This document shows positions 8,753 to 16,395 of a stretch of DNA of 38,363 bases, in pieces. The DNA is from Bacteroidales bacterium (GTDB taxonomy: Bacteria > Bacteroidota > Bacteroidia > Bacteroidales > Marinilabiliaceae). The stretch spans positions 1-38,363 of the forward strand of contig DUOK01000028.1 of NCBI GenBank assembly GCA_012838865.1. The letters are read 5' to 3'. A program made the translations under genes and the position numbers. How positions within the stretch are numbered: position 1 is the stretch's first letter; every line of letters begins with the position of its first letter. The notes below the pieces were generated by a model, which was not told where the DNA came from, searched no databases, and was given only the letters and a program-made list of their open reading frames with translations.

Positions 8753-9472
8753 ATGATTAAGATAGTAATAGACCAAGGCAACAGCGCTATTAAATACGGC
8801 ATTTTTGACAAAGACAAGTTAATTTTAGCCGAGACGGCAGATGGGCCTGACCAAAACCGGTTGAGAGAAGTGATCAGCGACTACCAACCGGAAGCTGCCA
8901 TCATTTCTTCGGTAAGGGAACCCCTTGATCTCTCCAGCTTGCCGGCGTTTTCGGGTCGCCTTATTGTACTGGACAACAACACCCCCCTTCCTTTTTCAAT
9001 TGGGTACAAAACGCCAACAACCCTTGGAAGGGACCGCCTTGCCGCTGTGGCCGGAGCGCAGTTCCAGTTTCCGGAAGCTTCCTTGTTAATTATTGACGCC
9101 GGAACCGCCCTGACCTACGAAGTGCTGTTGGATGGCCATCAATACTATGGTGGAAATATATCCCCCGGCTTAAACATGCGTTTTAAAGCACTTAACAGCT
9201 TCACCAGCAGATTGCCGCTGGTCGACAAACAGGAAAACTGTCCCCTTGCGGGGCAAAACACCAAAGAAGCCATTGCCTCCGGAGTAATAAATGGAATGGT
9301 TTTTGAAATGGAGGGCTACCGCACCGCCTGTCTGGACAAATGGGGTATCGATAAGACAATAATAACCGGCGGAGACTCATATTTTTTTGCCAGAAAACTA
9401 AAAAACCCCATCTTTGTAAATCAAAATTTAGTACTGGTAGGACTAAACCGAATATTGGAATACAATGTGTAA
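8753..9472 (+). CDS. coaX: Type III pantothenate kinase
   Basis: This 239-residue cytoplasmic enzyme is predicted to phosphorylate pantothenate, the first committed step to coenzyme A. It belongs to the ASKHA-fold CoaX group rather than the CoaA or CoaB-type kinases. The family blocks are all visible: DQGNSAIKYG for the phosphate loop, TLGRDRLAAVAGA (the GxDR motif), IIDAGTALTYEV (the DxGTA motif) and GGNISPGLNMRFKAL. It is the first gene of the plus-strand run up to the prolyl isomerase, and it overlaps the following barrel gene by 8 bases, so the two are almost certainly co-transcribed and coupled. Confidence 0.95.
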   Translation: MIKIVIDQGNSAIKYGIFDKDKLILAETADGPDQNRLREVISDYQPEAAIISSVREPLDLSSLPAFSGRLIVLDNNTPLPFSIGYKTPTTLGRDRLAAVAGAQFQFPEASLLIIDAGTALTYEVLLDGHQYYGGNISPGLNMRFKALNSFTSRLPLVDKQENCPLAGQNTKEAIASGVINGMVFEMEGYRTACLDKWGIDKTIITGGDSYFFARKLKNPIFVNQNLVLVGLNRILEYNV

Positions 9473-10754
9473 AACGCTAAAGCTGCTGCTTTCTGGACTG
9501 ATGATAGTTATACCGGTCAGCCTTCTTCAATCTCAAAATCGCACCTCTTCCCCTTTTTCACGCTACGGCATGGGCGAGTTGAATCCCCAGGGCTTCAGCA
9601 GAAACCAGGCCATGGGAGGAACAGGGATTGGCCTGCGATCGGCCGGCTACCTCAACAACATGAATCCGGCCTCCTACTCGGCGCTTGATTCCATGTCCTT
9701 TTTCTTTGAAACCGGACTGCAGTCGCTCACCCAAAACATTTCAGAAAACGGAGCCAGTGAGTCCTTCTCAGAAATGAATTTCGATTATTTTGCCCTCGGA
9801 TTTGCCGTTGGACCCAAGATGGGCATATCGCTGGGGTTCAGACCGGCCACGCAGGCGGGCTATGACTTTCAATCCCTGCAAACGGCCAATAACGACTCCC
9901 ATCTCCTTCAGATCAAGGGCGAAGGTAACTTCACAGACCTTTATGCCAGCGTAGCCTACAGCATCAGCCCCTCGCTGTCGGCCGGAATTAATGCCTCCTA
10001 TTGGTTTGGAGACATCAAACACACCTCTTTTCAGGATTTCGTAAGTGACCCCAACGCCTATATTTATGGCAGTCGTACCGAGCACCACATCGGAACCCTA
10101 CTCTTCGACCTTGGCTTACAATACACCACCTTGCTGGACGAGAACCGCAGCCTTACGCTGGGCCTGGTATTTCGACCGCAAACAGCAGTTAGCGGAAGAA
10201 GCAGTCACCTGGTGGCCCGTGGCACAGGCTATGACGTTCAGGGCGACCTGTTTACCAACAACGACACCCTCTCCTTCTCCTCGGACAGCTGGCGCAGCAG
10301 GAGCTTCGAGATGCCCTTAAAGCTGGGGGTCGGAGCGTCCTACACCATCCAAAACAAACTCATTTTGGCTGCCGACTATTCGACCGAGCGTTGGGCCGAT
10401 GTACAATTTCCGGACTTCAATACACAAACCGCCAACACCAATTATTTTGCATTGGGTGCGGAATTTATCCCCAACGAAAGAACCGGCAACCGTTACCATC
10501 AACGCATACGCTACAGAGCCGGCTTACATTACGCACAGGACTATATCAAAATCAACAACAACCAGCTTAGAGACTTTGGCATGGCTTTTGGGCTGGGTTT
10601 ACCACTTGGAAGAAGCAACACTTCCATCAACCTGGGTTTTGAATACGGAAACATAGGAACCGGGCAAAGCAGTGAGATGAAAGAAACCTACAGTAAGTTT
10701 ACCCTGGGTTTCACCCTGCATGAATACTGGTTCTTTAAACGAAAATTTGATTAA
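9465..10754 (+). CDS. Outer-membrane beta-barrel protein (FadL/PorV-like style)
   Basis: This 429-residue protein has a signal peptide, with cleavage likely after LLQSQ near residue 25. The mature start SRYGMGELNPQG is followed by AMGGTGIGLRS and an NNMNPASY motif of the type seen in FadL-related and PorV-like barrels of Bacteroidota. The rest alternates polar and hydrophobic residues as in transmembrane strands and ends in an aromatic strand, HEYWFFKRKFD, consistent with BAM-dependent insertion. It overlaps coaX by 8 bases and precedes a secreted TPR protein and LptC. Its substrate is unknown. Its position beside LptC allows a role in lipid or LPS traffic, but this is inference from context only. 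Confidence 0.75.
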   Translation: MCKTLKLLLSGLMIVIPVSLLQSQNRTSSPFSRYGMGELNPQGFSRNQAMGGTGIGLRSAGYLNNMNPASYSALDSMSFFFETGLQSLTQNISENGASESFSEMNFDYFALGFAVGPKMGISLGFRPATQAGYDFQSLQTANNDSHLLQIKGEGNFTDLYASVAYSISPSLSAGINASYWFGDIKHTSFQDFVSDPNAYIYGSRTEHHIGTLLFDLGLQYTTLLDENRSLTLGLVFRPQTAVSGRSSHLVARGTGYDVQGDLFTNNDTLSFSSDSWRSRSFEMPLKLGVGASYTIQNKLILAADYSTERWADVQFPDFNTQTANTNYFALGAEFIPNERTGNRYHQRIRYRAGLHYAQDYIKINNNQLRDFGMAFGLGLPLGRSNTSINLGFEYGNIGTGQSSEMKETYSKFTLGFTLHEYWFFKRKFD

Positions 10755-10784
10755 GCAATACACTAACTATCAAAAACTAGAGAC

Positions 10785-12140
10785 ATGAAAGCCATAAAAT
10801 TAATCGTACTGGGGTGGTTGATGACCATGACTTATGCCGCCGCACAAACGGGACTGGAGTCGGGCACCAGATACGGGGTGGGCGAAGACAGTATCCGTTG
10901 TGTAAAGCACCTTTCTCTTTATTCCGAAGATTTCAGAAACAAAAACTTTGAAGCTGCTTTTCCCGCGTGGGAGGTGGTTTTCAAAGAGTGTCCTGCAGCC
11001 ACCGTCAACATCTATCTGGATGGAGCGAAAATGCTCAGCGACAAAATTGAAGCCAATAAAGACGCTGCAAAATTTGAGGAGCTTTATGCCTACCTCATGA
11101 AGGTATACGACCAGCGTATGGAGTATTTTGGCGATCACCCGCGCTATCCAACCCCTGCCATAAAAGGGAGTAAGGCACTGGATATGCTCAAATACAAGCG
11201 CAACGACCCCGCCGTGGTAGAAGAGGCCTACAGCCTGCTGAACGACGCCGTTACGCAACTTAAAAGAGCCGCCCAACCTGCATTTTTGGCCACTTTTATG
11301 AGTACCGCAGTGAGTATGTACGGCGCAGGGAAGATTGATGCCGCCACCCTTGTGAACAACTATACCTTAATCAGCGACCTGACCGATCAAGTTCTTACGG
11401 ATAAGGCGCGCGCGTCGCACCACCCTGTTTACGAGCAGGTAAAAAGCGGTGTGGAAAGTCTCTTTGCCAACAGTGGCGCAGCGACTTGCGATGTCATCAT
11501 CGGTATTTATGAGCCCCAACTGGAGGACAACAAATTTGACCTGGCCTGGCTGAAACGCGTCAGCCAACTGTTGGCACGGGGTCTGTGTGAGGACGCTGAA
11601 TTGCTGTACAAAGTATCGGAATACCAGCATAACATTGAACCTTCCGGAGCTTCAGCTTTTGGCCTGGCCAGAATGTATCTGAAGGCAGGAGATATTGAGC
11701 GTGCCCTGGAATTCTTCAACCAGGCTGTTGAGCTTACCGACGACAACCGACAAAAAGGAGAGTATCTCCATCAGATGGCACTGATTCTCCTTTCGCAAAA
11801 CCGCTATTCTCAGGCTCGCGCCCATGCCCTAAGGGCCATAGAGGCGCGTCCCGACTGGGGGGTACCTTATCTTACCATCGGTCGTGCCTATGCGCTTTCA
11901 GCCAACAGCATTGGCGAAAAAGAAATTGAGAAAAAAGCAGCCTACTGGGCAGCCGTGGATAAATTCATGAAGGCCAAATCGGTAGACAGCAACGTGGCAG
12001 ATGAAGCCAACGGCCAAATCGCCACATTCTCAGCCCACTTTCCGGCCACCGATGAGATTTTCTTCGAAGGTTTGGAAGTAGGTGCCACCTACACCGTAGG
12101 AGGATGGATCAATGAAAGAACGACCATACGCAGTCGCTAA
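10785..12140 (+). CDS. Secreted tetratricopeptide repeat protein
   Basis: This 451-residue protein has a signal peptide (cleavage likely in AAAQ near residue 20), so it is periplasmic or surface exposed. TPR units are clearest at residues ~285-375: SAFGLARMYLKAGDIERALEFFNQAV, then GEYLHQMALILLSQNRYSQARAHALRAIEARPDWGVPYLTIGRAYA, interrupted here only for description. The N-terminal half is helical, with weaker repeats around EAAFPAWEVVFKECP. The C-terminal end ATYTVGGWINERTTIRSR is typical of a Bacteroidota TPR family encoded next to LptC. It lies 30 bases after the barrel gene and 2 bases before lptC, consistent with one transcript. It probably acts as a scaffold in the envelope; no enzymatic motif is present. 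Confidence 0.8.
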   Translation: MKAIKLIVLGWLMTMTYAAAQTGLESGTRYGVGEDSIRCVKHLSLYSEDFRNKNFEAAFPAWEVVFKECPAATVNIYLDGAKMLSDKIEANKDAAKFEELYAYLMKVYDQRMEYFGDHPRYPTPAIKGSKALDMLKYKRNDPAVVEEAYSLLNDAVTQLKRAAQPAFLATFMSTAVSMYGAGKIDAATLVNNYTLISDLTDQVLTDKARASHHPVYEQVKSGVESLFANSGAATCDVIIGIYEPQLEDNKFDLAWLKRVSQLLARGLCEDAELLYKVSEYQHNIEPSGASAFGLARMYLKAGDIERALEFFNQAVELTDDNRQKGEYLHQMALILLSQNRYSQARAHALRAIEARPDWGVPYLTIGRAYALSANSIGEKEIEKKAAYWAAVDKFMKAKSVDSNVADEANGQIATFSAHFPATDEIFFEGLEVGATYTVGGWINERTTIRSR

Positions 12141-12142
12141 AC

Positions 12143-12760
12143 ATGTCTTCTGAACGAAAAAACAAACTGCATCTGATAAGCACCGTGGCAGGCAGCATTT
12201 TGCTGCTTGCCACCGTGCTTTTTTTTCCTTCCTGTGCACCCAACAAGCCCGAAGAAATCAAGGAGCTGACCAATAGGGAAGAACTTCCAACTATTACTTA
12301 CAGGGATTTGCACAGCACCATTACCGATTCCGGGAAAATTCGCTACCGTTTCACCACTCCTGTAATGCAACAGTTCGATCAACGGAAGGAAGCCACCGTT
12401 GAGTTTCCGGAAGGTTTGCATCTGTATGTGTACAACAGTCTCGAAGAAATCGATGCCCAAATCAAATGCAAACAGGCCACCTATCACCAAACCAAAGACT
12501 TGTGGGAGTTGCGAAAGGACGTTGAGGCCGTTAATCTGGACGGTGAGGTGATCAACACCGAGCTGATGTATTGGGACATGTCTGCCAAGACACTGTATTC
12601 GGACCAGTTTATTAAGATCAGTACAGATACCGAGATCATTACGGGTACTGGGTTTGAATCAGACGAAAGAATGGAAAATTATAAAATAAAGAACATCAGT
12701 GGCATCCTTCAGGTTGAGGAAGCGCCTGCATCTTCTGCTTCAGAACCTACAGCACCATAA
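12143..12760 (+). CDS. lptC: LPS export protein LptC
   Basis: This 205-residue periplasmic protein has one N-terminal hydrophobic helix (about 13-28) followed by Cys31 in a FPSC sequence. It could be a bitopic inner-membrane anchor as in E. coli or a lipoprotein in the looser Bacteroidota style. The remainder is a beta-jellyroll OstA/LptC-like domain: strand-rich text such as GKIRYRFTTPVMQQF, EFPEGLHLYVYNS, INTELMYWDMSAKTLYS and TGTGFESDERMENYKI, where the GxGFESD turn is characteristic. LptC bridges the LptB2FG transporter to LptA in moving LPS across the periplasm. It starts 2 bases after the TPR gene. lptA, lptB and lptD are not in this window. Confidence 0.85.
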   Translation: MSSERKNKLHLISTVAGSILLLATVLFFPSCAPNKPEEIKELTNREELPTITYRDLHSTITDSGKIRYRFTTPVMQQFDQRKEATVEFPEGLHLYVYNSLEEIDAQIKCKQATYHQTKDLWELRKDVEAVNLDGEVINTELMYWDMSAKTLYSDQFIKISTDTEIITGTGFESDERMENYKIKNISGILQVEEAPASSASEPTAP

Positions 12761-12871: not shown

Positions 12872-14131
12872 ATGGATACCCTTTCAGTTCTTCTTGTCAC
12901 CCTGCTGTTCTCCGCCGTATTCTCCGGCAGTGAAATGGCATTTCTGTCCACCAACAAACTGATGATCGAACTCAACCGGAAGAAACATCCCTCCCTGAGT
13001 AAAATCACCGACCGTTTCCACCGGAACCCCGGACTTTTTATATCGACCATACTCATAGGCAACAACATTGCACTGGTGATTTATGGAATGTTTATGGCCA
13101 GTCTGCTTGAACCTTATCTGACCCGCTTCATCGATTCTGAATTCGGCATCCTCTTTATTCAAACACTGGCTGGAACGCTGCTGATCCTGATCAGTGCTGA
13201 ATTTCTTCCCAAAATCATCTTCCGTCTCAATCCTACCGCCTCCCTCAACTTTATGGCCTTCCCTTTGTGGATCGTCTATACCCTCTTCTACCCCCTGTCA
13301 AAACTGACGCTGTCCACATCTAACTTTTTGATAAAAAAAGTAATAAAATCGCCCGGGCACCCGCAACGGGAGAATATCGTAATAGGCCGGATAGACCTGG
13401 ACCACTTAATTATGGAGCAGGAAAAGGGCAGCGACGACGATGAAGTGCCGGAAGAAATGAAGTTTTTTAAAAACGCACTGGATTTTTCCACGGTCAAGGT
13501 CAGAGAATGCTCTGTCCCGAGAACCGAGATCGAAGCCGTGGACATCGATGAGGAACTGGAGGTGCTCCGCGAGCGTTTTACGGAAACCGGCTTTTCCAAA
13601 ATTCTGATTTACCGTGAAAGTATCGACAACATAGTGGGCTACGTACACGTATCCGCTCTTTTCCGTAATCCCAAAAAATTACGCAATGTAATCAGCCCCA
13701 TTTCTATTGTGCCCGAGTCGATGCCCGCCAGCAAACTGCTGGAGACCTTCACCAAGGAACACAAAAGTATTGTATTGGTGGTGGATGAGTTCGGCGGAAC
13801 CTCGGGGATTGTTACCCTGGAAGATATTCTGGAAGAGATTTTCGGTGAAATTGACGACGAACACGACACCTCTGACCTTACCGAAATACAAATCAGCCAA
13901 AACAGCTACAGCTTTTCAGGTCGATTTGAAATTGACTATCTGAATGAGAAATACAATCTCAACTTACCCGTTTCCGATGAATATGAAACCCTGGCAGGCC
14001 TCATACTTTATCACAACGAGGCCATTCCTGAAAAAGGGCAGGAGATTATCATTGACCAATTCTCCCTTAAAATTCTTGATGCTTCCAAATCAAAAATAGA
14101 ACAGGTACAAATAACCCTGCCTACGGCTTAA
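12872..14131 (+). CDS. CNNM/CorC-family transporter-like protein (hemolysin C type)
   Basis: This 419-residue inner-membrane protein has a DUF21/CNNM transmembrane domain in the first ~170 residues, with the start signature FSGSEMAFLSTNKL and the loop LIGNNIALVIYG, followed by three or four hydrophobic helices. A cytosolic CBS-domain pair (about 190-310) contains VPRTEIEAVD and VVDEFGGTSGIVTLEDILEEIFGEIDDE; the latter is the family hallmark. A C-terminal CorC/HlyC domain (about 335-415) follows, with FSGRFEIDYLN and YETLAGLIL. CNNM/CorC proteins are linked to magnesium or other divalent cation export, and the old name hemolysin does not imply toxicity. The gene stands between lptC and the prolyl isomerase, an order I recall in other Bacteroidota. 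Confidence 0.88.
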   Translation: MDTLSVLLVTLLFSAVFSGSEMAFLSTNKLMIELNRKKHPSLSKITDRFHRNPGLFISTILIGNNIALVIYGMFMASLLEPYLTRFIDSEFGILFIQTLAGTLLILISAEFLPKIIFRLNPTASLNFMAFPLWIVYTLFYPLSKLTLSTSNFLIKKVIKSPGHPQRENIVIGRIDLDHLIMEQEKGSDDDEVPEEMKFFKNALDFSTVKVRECSVPRTEIEAVDIDEELEVLRERFTETGFSKILIYRESIDNIVGYVHVSALFRNPKKLRNVISPISIVPESMPASKLLETFTKEHKSIVLVVDEFGGTSGIVTLEDILEEIFGEIDDEHDTSDLTEIQISQNSYSFSGRFEIDYLNEKYNLNLPVSDEYETLAGLILYHNEAIPEKGQEIIIDQFSLKILDASKSKIEQVQITLPTA

Positions 14132-14249: not shown

Positions 14250-16343
14250 ATGGCAACTTTAGAAAAAATACGAAGTAAAGGAGGAATTCTTGTGGCCATC
14301 TTCGTTGGCTTCGCGCTTTTTGCTTTCATCATGATGGACTTCATGAGTTCCGGAGGGTCGATGTTTTCGGGCAGCCAAATGGAGGTAGCCAACATCAATG
14401 GCACTTCGGTAAGCATCCAGGAATTTCAGAATAAAGTTTCTGAAATGGAAGAGTTCAACAAAATGAACCAGGGTGTGAACACACTGTCGGAAGAGGACGT
14501 CTACCGCCTCCGCGAACAAACCTGGAACCAAATGGTCAATCAGCTTTTGCTGGATGAGCAATACCAACAACTGGGCATCACCGTTGGTCCTGAAGAATTG
14601 ATGGATATGGTAGCCGGTCGTAACATTCACCCCGCCATTCGACAGCATCCACTTTTTGCCAACCAGCAAACCGGTGTTTTCGACCAAAACCAGGTACTTA
14701 ACTTCTTACAGATTAAGAATCAAGACCCCAGCGCCCATTTCTATTGGATGATGATGGAAGAACAGCTGATTAATGAGCGCCTTTACACCAAATATGCCGC
14801 CCTCCTTCGCAATGGCATGTACATCCCCGCCATTTGGAAGGACAGCGAACTGGCCAGCCGTTCTAAACAAGCAGACATCGATTTTGTGGTGGCCCGTTAC
14901 AGTGCGGTTCCCGACAGCAGCATAAGCATTGCCAGCAAGGAAATCAGAGATTATTACAACCGCAATCAAAATGATTTCAAGCAAGAGGCTGCCAGAGACA
15001 TCGAATACATCACCTTCCCCATCGAAGCAACAGAGGAGGACCGTCAAGCCACCCTCGACTGGGTGACAGAGCGTATGGCCGACTTTTCACGTCCGGAGAC
15101 CGACCCTGTTCAGTACGTTAACCTCAATTCTGATGAACCTTTCAGTGCGCGTAACCACAGGTCGGCCGAGTTTTCATCACGCATTGAGGACTTTGTGCGC
15201 ACAGCACAAGTCGGAGAAGTTTATGGCCCCTACCTCGAAAACGAAAGTTACAAAGCCGTTCGCCTGGTAGCCATCAACAATTTGCCCGACTCGGTTAGGG
15301 CCCGTCACATTTTGTTGCGTGAAGCCTCTCCTGAGGCCACACATCAACTGGCAGACAGCTTACTGAACCTGGCGCGTAGTGGCGGCAACTTTGCTGATTT
15401 GGCGCGTCGTCACTCTCAGGATCAGGGTTCGGCCATCAACGGGGGCGACCTGGGATGGTTTACCGAAGGGATCATGGTGCAACCTTTTAACGATGCAGTC
15501 TTTAACGGAAAAGCCGGTGATATTGTAAAAGTAGAAAGCCAGTTTGGTGTGCACATCGTGCACATTCAGCAGCAAGGCGCTGCCTCTCCCAAGTACCAGA
15601 TCGCGACCCTGGCCCGTGAAATCTCCTACAGTTCTAAAACCTATCAGGAAGTTTACAGCAAGGCCAATCGTTTTGCTGCCCAAAACAACAGTGCGGAAAA
15701 ATTCAGCACCGCCGCTGAAGAAGAAGGACTAACCAAGCGCTTCGGCCGATCCATTGGCGCCAACGATCGCGGAGTAAGCGGATTGGAAGCCTCAAGAGAG
15801 CTGGTACGCTGGACCTATGAGGCTAAAAAAGGGGACCTTTCTCCTGTTTATGAATTCGGCGACCGCTTTGTAATTGCGCATCTGACGGAGGTGCGTGAAG
15901 AAGGTGTTCGCGCCTTTGAGCAAGTTCGCACACAAATTGAGCGCCAACTTATTGCCGATAAAAAAGCAGACCAATTGCTGGCCCAAATGCAGGAAAAACT
16001 GGAAGCTGGTGCCGACTTGGAAACACTTGCTGCAGCCTTCAACAGCAGTGTTCAGAGTGCCGACAACATTGGTTTTGCCGCCTTCCAGGTCCCCGGAGCA
16101 GGCGTAGAACCAGCCCTGGCTGCCGCTGCAGTTACGGTTCCGGCCGGCCAGGTTTCTCAACCTTTTAAAGGAAACAATGGCGTATATGTTGTTAAAGTGA
16201 AGCAGCTCGAGGATATAACTGTTAATGCCGACAACATCGGTCGCGAACTGGACCAGAACCTCAGTATGAAGGTTGATTACCAATTGCTGGAGGCCATTCG
16301 TGAGAAAGCAGAAATCACCGATAACAGAGCCAATTTCTATTAA
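14250..16343 (+). CDS. Periplasmic peptidyl-prolyl isomerase, PpiD/SurA type
   Basis: This 697-residue membrane-anchored chaperone has a single N-terminal helix (about residues 11-30, GILVAIFVGFALFAFIMMDF), which places the bulk in the periplasm as in PpiD. A SurA_N-like helical region (about 35-230) includes EEDVYRLREQTWNQMVNQLLLDEQY. A parvulin domain occupies about 348-437: RARHILLRE, then SGGNFADLARRHSQDQGSA, GGDLGWFTEG and QFGVHIVHI. It is followed by a second, less conserved parvulin-like and helical segment. Predicted role: folding of outer-membrane and secreted proteins as they leave the translocon. It closes the coaX-to-ppiD run and is followed by a strong terminator. The catalytic activity is inferred; some family members have inactive parvulin copies. 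Confidence 0.9.
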   Translation: MATLEKIRSKGGILVAIFVGFALFAFIMMDFMSSGGSMFSGSQMEVANINGTSVSIQEFQNKVSEMEEFNKMNQGVNTLSEEDVYRLREQTWNQMVNQLLLDEQYQQLGITVGPEELMDMVAGRNIHPAIRQHPLFANQQTGVFDQNQVLNFLQIKNQDPSAHFYWMMMEEQLINERLYTKYAALLRNGMYIPAIWKDSELASRSKQADIDFVVARYSAVPDSSISIASKEIRDYYNRNQNDFKQEAARDIEYITFPIEATEEDRQATLDWVTERMADFSRPETDPVQYVNLNSDEPFSARNHRSAEFSSRIEDFVRTAQVGEVYGPYLENESYKAVRLVAINNLPDSVRARHILLREASPEATHQLADSLLNLARSGGNFADLARRHSQDQGSAINGGDLGWFTEGIMVQPFNDAVFNGKAGDIVKVESQFGVHIVHIQQQGAASPKYQIATLAREISYSSKTYQEVYSKANRFAAQNNSAEKFSTAAEEEGLTKRFGRSIGANDRGVSGLEASRELVRWTYEAKKGDLSPVYEFGDRFVIAHLTEVREEGVRAFEQVRTQIERQLIADKKADQLLAQMQEKLEAGADLETLAAAFNSSVQSADNIGFAAFQVPGAGVEPALAAAAVTVPAGQVSQPFKGNNGVYVVKVKQLEDITVNADNIGRELDQNLSMKVDYQLLEAIREKAEITDNRANFY

Positions 16344-16364: not shown

Positions 16365-16395
16365 AAAGGCCGGTTGCGATGCGCAACCGGCCTTT
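16365..16395. terminator. Bidirectional stem-loop terminator between ppiD and yqeY
   Basis: A perfect 14-base-pair stem (AAAGGCCGGTTGCG, 16365-16378, with CGCAACCGGCCTTT, 16382-16395) surrounds a three-base loop. T residues at 16393-16396 follow on the plus strand and A residues precede, so the structure can serve both converging genes. The stem is GC-rich at its core and A/T at its base, typical of an intrinsic terminator. Confidence 0.85.

Follow-up and report, generated by a model that had tools for sequence, protein, structure and literature searches.

The 38,363 nucleotides considered here (the window; contig DUOK01000028.1 of assembly GCA_012838865.1, from a Bacteroidales bacterium of the Marinilabiliaceae) carry on one strand coaX, a gene for an outer-membrane barrel, a gene for a secreted tetratricopeptide repeat (TPR) protein, and lptC, at spacings of −8, +30, and +2 bases between open reading frames (ORFs), as the initial annotation had described. 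We consider it reasonably probable that this locus is an envelope-biogenesis run in two halves, with an attenuator-like element between them; coaX, the barrel gene bamG, and the TPR gene would form the first half, and lptC, a CNNM-type gene, and a PpiD-like isomerase gene the second. The link between bamG and the TPR gene is a feature of the phylum, and the link to lptC is a feature of the window's class. More tentatively, and with somewhat less than even confidence, we propose two novelties jointly. The first would be an unrecognised periplasmic TPR factor of the β-barrel assembly machinery (BAM), tied to bamG in the window's class and in other classes of the phylum, and missed since the Flavobacterium johnsoniae lineage mostly lost it. 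The second would be a conserved attenuator in the signal-peptide codons of lptC, which would split one transcript between BamG and LptC, the extent of read-through depending on how soon the signal peptide is translated.

The barrel as a BAM subunit

The barrel gene (9465–10754, forward strand) encodes what is, by sequence match, BamG, the FadL-like barrel subunit of the Bacteroidota protein-insertion machine. Its product scores 384.3 bits against the NCBIfam equivalog model for BamG (NF053685; cut-off 250), covering model positions 1–397 of 397, and has no Pfam match. The top sequence matches in the PDB are the chains 9hiv_F (5.5e-65), 9hjm_F, and 9n2d_B, which belong, according to the data statements of the corresponding papers, to the BAM complexes of Bacteroides thetaiotaomicron (9HIV), Porphyromonas gingivalis (9HJM), and F. 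johnsoniae (9N2D). The NPAS motif remarked upon in the initial annotation is present (NMNPASYS), as is the extended N-terminal tail, in which QNRTSSPFSRYG of the window aligns without gaps with QNNTNSPYTRYG of B. thetaiotaomicron BamG.

BamG and BamH were first described as BAM subunits in 2025 (PMC12611786; PMC12578637). As set out in the available text of these two papers, BamG is a 14-strand FadL-like barrel on the back of BamA, with an extended N-terminal tail that threads the lateral opening of BamA, and it carries the surface lipoprotein BamH. In the relatives studied there, BamG binds BamA and BamH and is needed for outer-membrane protein insertion, and its depletion in F. johnsoniae mimics the loss of BamA. 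We accordingly assign the barrel to protein insertion. Compared with the BamG proteins described in that text, the match is full-length, tail included, and we find no difference. An identity as a fatty-acid or lipopolysaccharide (LPS) channel was considered and rejected, since the chains of TbuX, TodX, and CymD match only at 0.0005 to 0.05, much more weakly than those of BamG. The earlier placement of the barrel in LPS transport gives way, on the NCBIfam and PDB matches, to that of a BAM subunit. BamG is already known; what we infer from the sequences is the function of the TPR protein and termination at the hairpin.

A TPR family that follows bamG

The TPR gene (10785–12140, forward strand) belongs to an unnamed family linked to bamG. 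A phylum sample of 198 genomes was searched with BamG and with an 83-row TPR alignment (threshold 1e-30 for the latter), giving BamG matches in 174 genomes and TPR matches in 87, and in all 87 genomes that have the TPR gene it lies directly after bamG. For 85 of these, the places among the matches listed put the TPR gene immediately behind bamG, both genes on one strand, with a median distance of 68 bases between the matches; for the other two (G001 and G184), whose bamG places fell outside the listing, adjacency was settled by coordinate search. Barrel and TPR protein, which the initial annotation had joined, are indeed a conserved pair, but the tie of the TPR gene to lptC that it also supposed does not hold phylum-wide, where the gene follows bamG instead.

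Orthology of these genes is not circular, since a profile made from only the 23 TPR proteins of the window's class recovers the 61 outside TPR proteins (60 at 102–225 bits, one at 54); it lifts no other ORF of the loci above 46 bits except a tandem copy (L084, 305 bits). The locus set comprises 137 genomes among the BamG matches listed, together with two paralogue places, and the main copies of G021, G174, and G084 are not included in it as 20-kb loci. Families bear the arbitrary labels f1 to f40, genus g6 of f5 being called Flavobacterium-like, and other classes are those that we take, from their gene content, to be Rhodothermia-, Ignavibacteria-, and Chlorobiota-like. Family f17, in which BamG is weak or absent and to which no TPR genome belongs, may be Chlorobiota, a group without BamG and BamH according to the available text of the Nature paper.

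The class sample holds 109 genomes, 106 of them with a match to BamG, TPR, or LptC. Here the TPR search gave matches in 72 of the 109 at 1e-10, of which we counted the 46 at 156 bits or more and dropped those not exceeding 97 bits, almost all of them partial repeats. In 41 of these 46 genomes bamG directly precedes the TPR gene, and in 41 lptC directly follows it. Of the five without bamG directly ahead, one (G252) has a very weak bamG, one (G261) starts at a contig edge, and three (G217, G262, and G284) are returned to below. Conversely, in G213, G216, G220, and G287 the TPR gene stays beside bamG, with lptC lying elsewhere or not found (in a fifth such genome, G218, there is a contig break), and family f6 keeps coaX-bamG-TPR with no lptC found in any of its five loci; the contig of one of these (L067) ends 515 bases past the TPR gene.

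Because the gene stands directly after bamG across the phylum, irrespective of any lptC nearby, we consider the TPR protein most likely, on this evidence of gene order, to be a periplasmic partner of BamG, either a BAM accessory or an assembly factor for BamG/BamH. Several observations weigh against this assignment. The TPR gene is found in only 87 of 198 phylum genomes and 46 of 109 class genomes, and the protein would therefore be dispensable; the F. johnsoniae-like genus is mostly without it. The BAM subunit lists for B. thetaiotaomicron and F. johnsoniae, so far as the available text of the papers gives them, hold no TPR subunit. Finally, in G217, G262, and G284 the TPR gene precedes lptC, and no bamG match lies immediately upstream of it.

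The TPR protein itself begins with a signal-peptide-like stretch without a lipobox, its family matches are to TPR repeats only, and its AlphaFold model (predicted local distance difference test score 93.1) is all helical except for a C-terminal pair of short strands. A fold search with this model returned generic TPR superhelices (OGT, LGN, consensus TPR) and no informative relative. A secreted TPR superhelix is common to this protein, LapB, SprE/PorW, and BamD, but identities as LapB/YciM (12.7 bits, cut-off 363) and SprE/PorW (18.6 bits, cut-off 250) were rejected, the window protein falling far below both model cut-offs and having a C-terminal signature of its own (CWI.ES[VT]TVR-like). Across the 83 TPR rows, Y369, P420, F426, and G433 do not vary, and W441-I442 hardly varies. 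Of 84 sequences, 79 have cysteines at column 376 and immediately ahead of W441, and the other five have neither; no sequence has only one of the two, a pattern that suggests a disulfide between them. The five are the window's protein, its two nearest relatives, L075, and L110, the last cut by a contig end. A second cysteine pair, at window residues 235 and 268, is present in 23 of 84 sequences and wholly absent in 61. Among open-licence PMC papers we found none on this family, and a literature search on locus tags near BT4367 returned PMC12578637 only.

Outside the class, a gene of a DUF4270-type (BamH-type) cluster stands directly before bamG in 25 of 25 f23 loci, and in 76 of 91 outside loci the gene in that position belongs either to this cluster or to a second, lipoprotein-like one. 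The P. gingivalis chain 9hjm_G was deposited under the name DUF4270, and L041, a class member of the DUF4270-type cluster, matches that chain at 3e-8. The BamH label for the outside genes is given because of Pfam DUF4270, a search of the PDB having found nothing, either with the DUF4270 profile (A3) at 0.01 or with a single query (L168) at 10. Of seven proteins scanned against Pfam DUF4270, five match at E up to 0.01 and four lie above the cut-off; L097 lies above it in a separate scan, and L048 (cluster 6) shows no DUF4270. The order outside the class would thus be bamH-bamG-TPR.

Lpt genes also recur in the neighbourhood of bamG there, with lptB a few genes after bamG in all 25 f23 loci and an LptD gene in 13 loci of other families; examples near bamG-TPR lie at 13767–14528 in L090 and 2560–5289 in L076, both on the reverse strand. 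All five f6 genomes hold an additional TPR copy (260–276 bits), which is a tandem one in G162 and lies elsewhere in G037, G064, G158, and G178; G171 also has a second copy. In the window's own genome, contig C88 (L166) holds a weak BamG-like barrel (44.9 bits; 11573–12085, reverse strand) and, some 3 kb away, a weak TPR relative (14845–15210, forward strand).

The lptC gene and its linkage

The product of lptC (12143–12760, forward strand) matches PF06835 at 54 bits (cut-off 21) and TIGR04409 at 80 bits (cut-off 38), and its best matches in a Foldseek fold search are LptC structures (6mit_C at 2.7e-8, 6mjp_C, 4b54, and 3my2); family models and predicted fold agree with the LptC of the LptB2FGC transporter. 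The LptC of Escherichia coli is anchored by a membrane helix. Instead of such a bitopic helix, the window LptC has a lipobox-like cysteine, Cys31, after a hydrophobic stretch, and because all 34 aligned class sequences share this residue (alignment A5, which omits five shorter trimmed ORFs), the class LptC is probably a lipid-anchored lipoprotein. Whereas lptC is usually encoded with lptA/lptB, in the window's draft genome lptB and an OstA-type lptA sit on other contigs, as does a DUF4270 gene.

Within the class, 79 of 106 genomes have bamG-(TPR)-lptC as an unbroken run, a lower bound, as two of the 17 no-TPR genomes scored as non-contiguous (G012 and G080) do have lptC beside bamG by our own profile. 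In this joining of places, five genomes had a second, weak LptC match that was omitted, and one piece of each split BamG match was used. Of the 60 class genomes without the TPR gene, 43 have bamG directly followed by lptC, and in the 35 class loci holding both coaX and lptC, coaX adjoins bamG with a median gap of −8 bases. The order is therefore conserved in the class beyond what chance would give, and the frequent separation in related genomes that the initial annotation had named as a refutation is not encountered there. Outside the class, lptC lies within 30 kb of bamG in none of 40 genomes, these being the ones with both places among the matches listed.

A joint role for the barrel, the TPR protein, and LptC in LPS transport or the associated quality control, as was initially proposed, now seems to us improbable. 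The contiguity just described would fit such a role, as would the lptB and LptD genes near bamG outside the class and the LPS lipid at the BamA-BamG interface of the F. johnsoniae structure, mentioned in the available text. Against this stand the identity of the barrel as BamG, the hairpin at the joint of the TPR gene and lptC described below, and the retention of the TPR gene beside bamG where lptC is elsewhere, both in the four class genomes named above and outside the class. Operon inertia, with bamG, the TPR gene, and lptC mere neighbours lacking any functional tie, might be argued from the presence of coaX, which has no known envelope role, and from the differing genes around bamG in different classes; it is likewise improbable, as the bamG-TPR pair is kept while those surrounding genes change. 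A partnership of the TPR protein with BamG remains our preferred account, and a link between BAM and LptC is possible at the level of expression.

A hairpin in the signal-peptide codons of lptC

The tight packing of the TPR gene and lptC had been taken as a sign of joint action, but the 2-base gap hides a terminator-like hairpin, so that the packing is no evidence of a single, equal transcript. In the window this element spans 12178–12226 on the forward strand (hairpin 12178–12220, eight-T run 12219–12226), inside the signal-peptide codons of lptC, with 19 pairs, a 3-base loop, and a z of −5.27. Its G+C-containing stem followed by a T run has the make-up of an intrinsic terminator, and the T run encodes Phe-Phe ahead of the lipobox.

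Such hairpins are concentrated at the start of lptC. At −9 kcal/mol or below, 17 were found in 5.7 kb of lptC starts as opposed to 7 in 196 kb of other coding sequence from the same operons. Counted over the first 150 bases of each gene, they occur in 17 of 38 lptC genes, 1 of 143 bamG, 1 of 87 TPR, 0 of 41 coaX, 1 of 23 CNNM, 1 of 28 peptidyl-prolyl isomerase (PPIase), and 33 of 1491 other genes. When class loci holding coaX and lptC are tallied joint by joint, the hairpin is present at 17 of 18 TPR|lptC joints, 6 of 17 bamG|lptC joints, 2 of 5 lptC|PPIase joints, and 20 of 27 ends of the run, and at 1 of 35 coaX|bamG, 0 of 18 bamG|TPR, 1 of 21 lptC|CNNM, and 0 of 22 CNNM|PPIase joints; a Fisher test compared the 17 of 18 at TPR|lptC with 2 of 96 at four other internal joints. 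Altogether 25 of 39 lptC joints have it, 19 starting inside lptC, with the start as placed here, and 6, mainly of f9, before it; the lptC starts of L150, L161, and L163 are uncertain.

Two findings count against the attenuator reading. By the set rule the hairpin is missing at 14 of 39 lptC joints, including all of f2, f4, f7, and f10, and 10 of 51 BamH-type genes also hold such a hairpin. The element may not be special to lptC, recurring instead in envelope lipoprotein genes that follow another gene. The ten BamH-type genes are all of f23 (L081, L087, L089, L090, L097, L107, L123, L128, L131, and L132), and their hairpins lie within the first 110 bases of the ORF, before the lipobox codon.

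The hairpin might alternatively be no terminator, controlling instead the translation or stability of the lptC messenger RNA (mRNA) or shielding the 3' end of a bamG-TPR mRNA. Its position 26–42 bases past the lptC start in the window and most f5 loci would suit such a role, and strong folds are seen at that place in L046 of f3 and in some genes of f2, which fail the T-run rule. On the other hand, the T run comes directly after the stem in f1, f5, and f9, and the rate at the TPR|lptC joint resembles that at the end of the run, unlike the other internal joints. We judge this alternative unlikely, and favor partial termination.

Retention of the hairpin as RNA

The hairpin is more stable than the encoded protein demands. 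In synonymous draws that keep the protein and the codon usage of the locus, the observed stability was reached in 0–13 of 1000 for each of 17 lptC genes. Over the 54 bases before the cysteine, z falls below −2 in 22 of 38 lptC genes versus 14 of 169 control genes, and L149 and two f4 genes fold strongly though missed by the strict hairpin rule.

For 15 f5 sequences, with a mean identity of 49% in the stem region, a helix of 16 pairs forms in 81% of cells, and nine pairs are changed on both sides. The covariation score of 0.435 compares with 0.236 ± 0.024 for shuffles (0 of 500 reaching it) and 0.086–0.167 for the helix slid along the alignment. Related sequences can beat shuffles without any structure, though the slid versions, which preserve relatedness, score much lower; the choice of helix was made on the same 15 sequences, which favors the score. 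An RNA model of the f5 hairpin, run on 54 class sources, found only its 15 training genes, antisense copies of three, and one weak match, and it found nothing in 31 outside loci. Since the model finds essentially its training genes only, the window hairpin is like that of f5 in place and not in sequence.

A stable hairpin and T run early in a reading frame are common to intrinsic terminators and ORF-internal attenuators. The window element differs from these in lying within the signal-peptide codons of what is probably a lipoprotein gene, with its T run read as Phe codons, and the lptC element in being kept by covariation. Rfam gave no match at the gathering score, no paper on an lptC hairpin was found among open-licence PMC papers, and word searches of the available text of three transcriptome papers (PMC7366714; PMC10994844; PMC9723704) found no mention of lptC. 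A word search of the available text of PMC12611786 and PMC12578637 likewise found no mention of a gene order with bamG beside coaX, the TPR gene, and lptC.

Flanking features of the locus

The run opens with coaX (8753–9472, forward strand), a type III pantothenate kinase gene (Pan_kinase, 128 bits). Downstream of lptC, on the same strand, lie a GldE-like gene for a CNNM/CorC-type membrane protein (12872–14131; CNNM, CBS, and CorC_HlyC matches; GldE 208 bits, below the cut-off of 376) and the gene for a PpiD-like PPIase with SurA_N and rotamase matches (14250–16343). A bidirectional terminator-like hairpin of 14 pairs, seen on both strands, closes the run at 16365–16395. A promoter scan gave nothing above shuffles. 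A first genome scan found two relatives only, and the closest named genome is that of Geofilum rhodophaeum, with a BamG 92% identical.

Mechanism and implications

In the mechanism that we propose, BamG would hold the extracellular lipoprotein canopy on BamA, as was shown for relatives in 2025, and the TPR protein would work with BamG/BamH in the periplasm. The hairpin at the joint would most likely end a share of the transcripts, leaving lptC and the downstream genes to be made by read-through, at another level. In loci where it lies inside lptC, it would be escaped by no promoter ahead of that gene. A ribosome following close behind on lptC would prevent the stem from forming and so provide a natural release, and in this way expression of lptC would depend on the start of its own translation.

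Standing beside bamG in every sampled genome of the phylum that has it, the TPR gene is a direct candidate for a helper of BamG/BamH. If the reading of the hairpin is correct, covarying pairs within signal-peptide codons would mean a coding stretch that doubles as a switch, and would offer a way to approach the balance between protein insertion and LPS transport in Bacteroidota.

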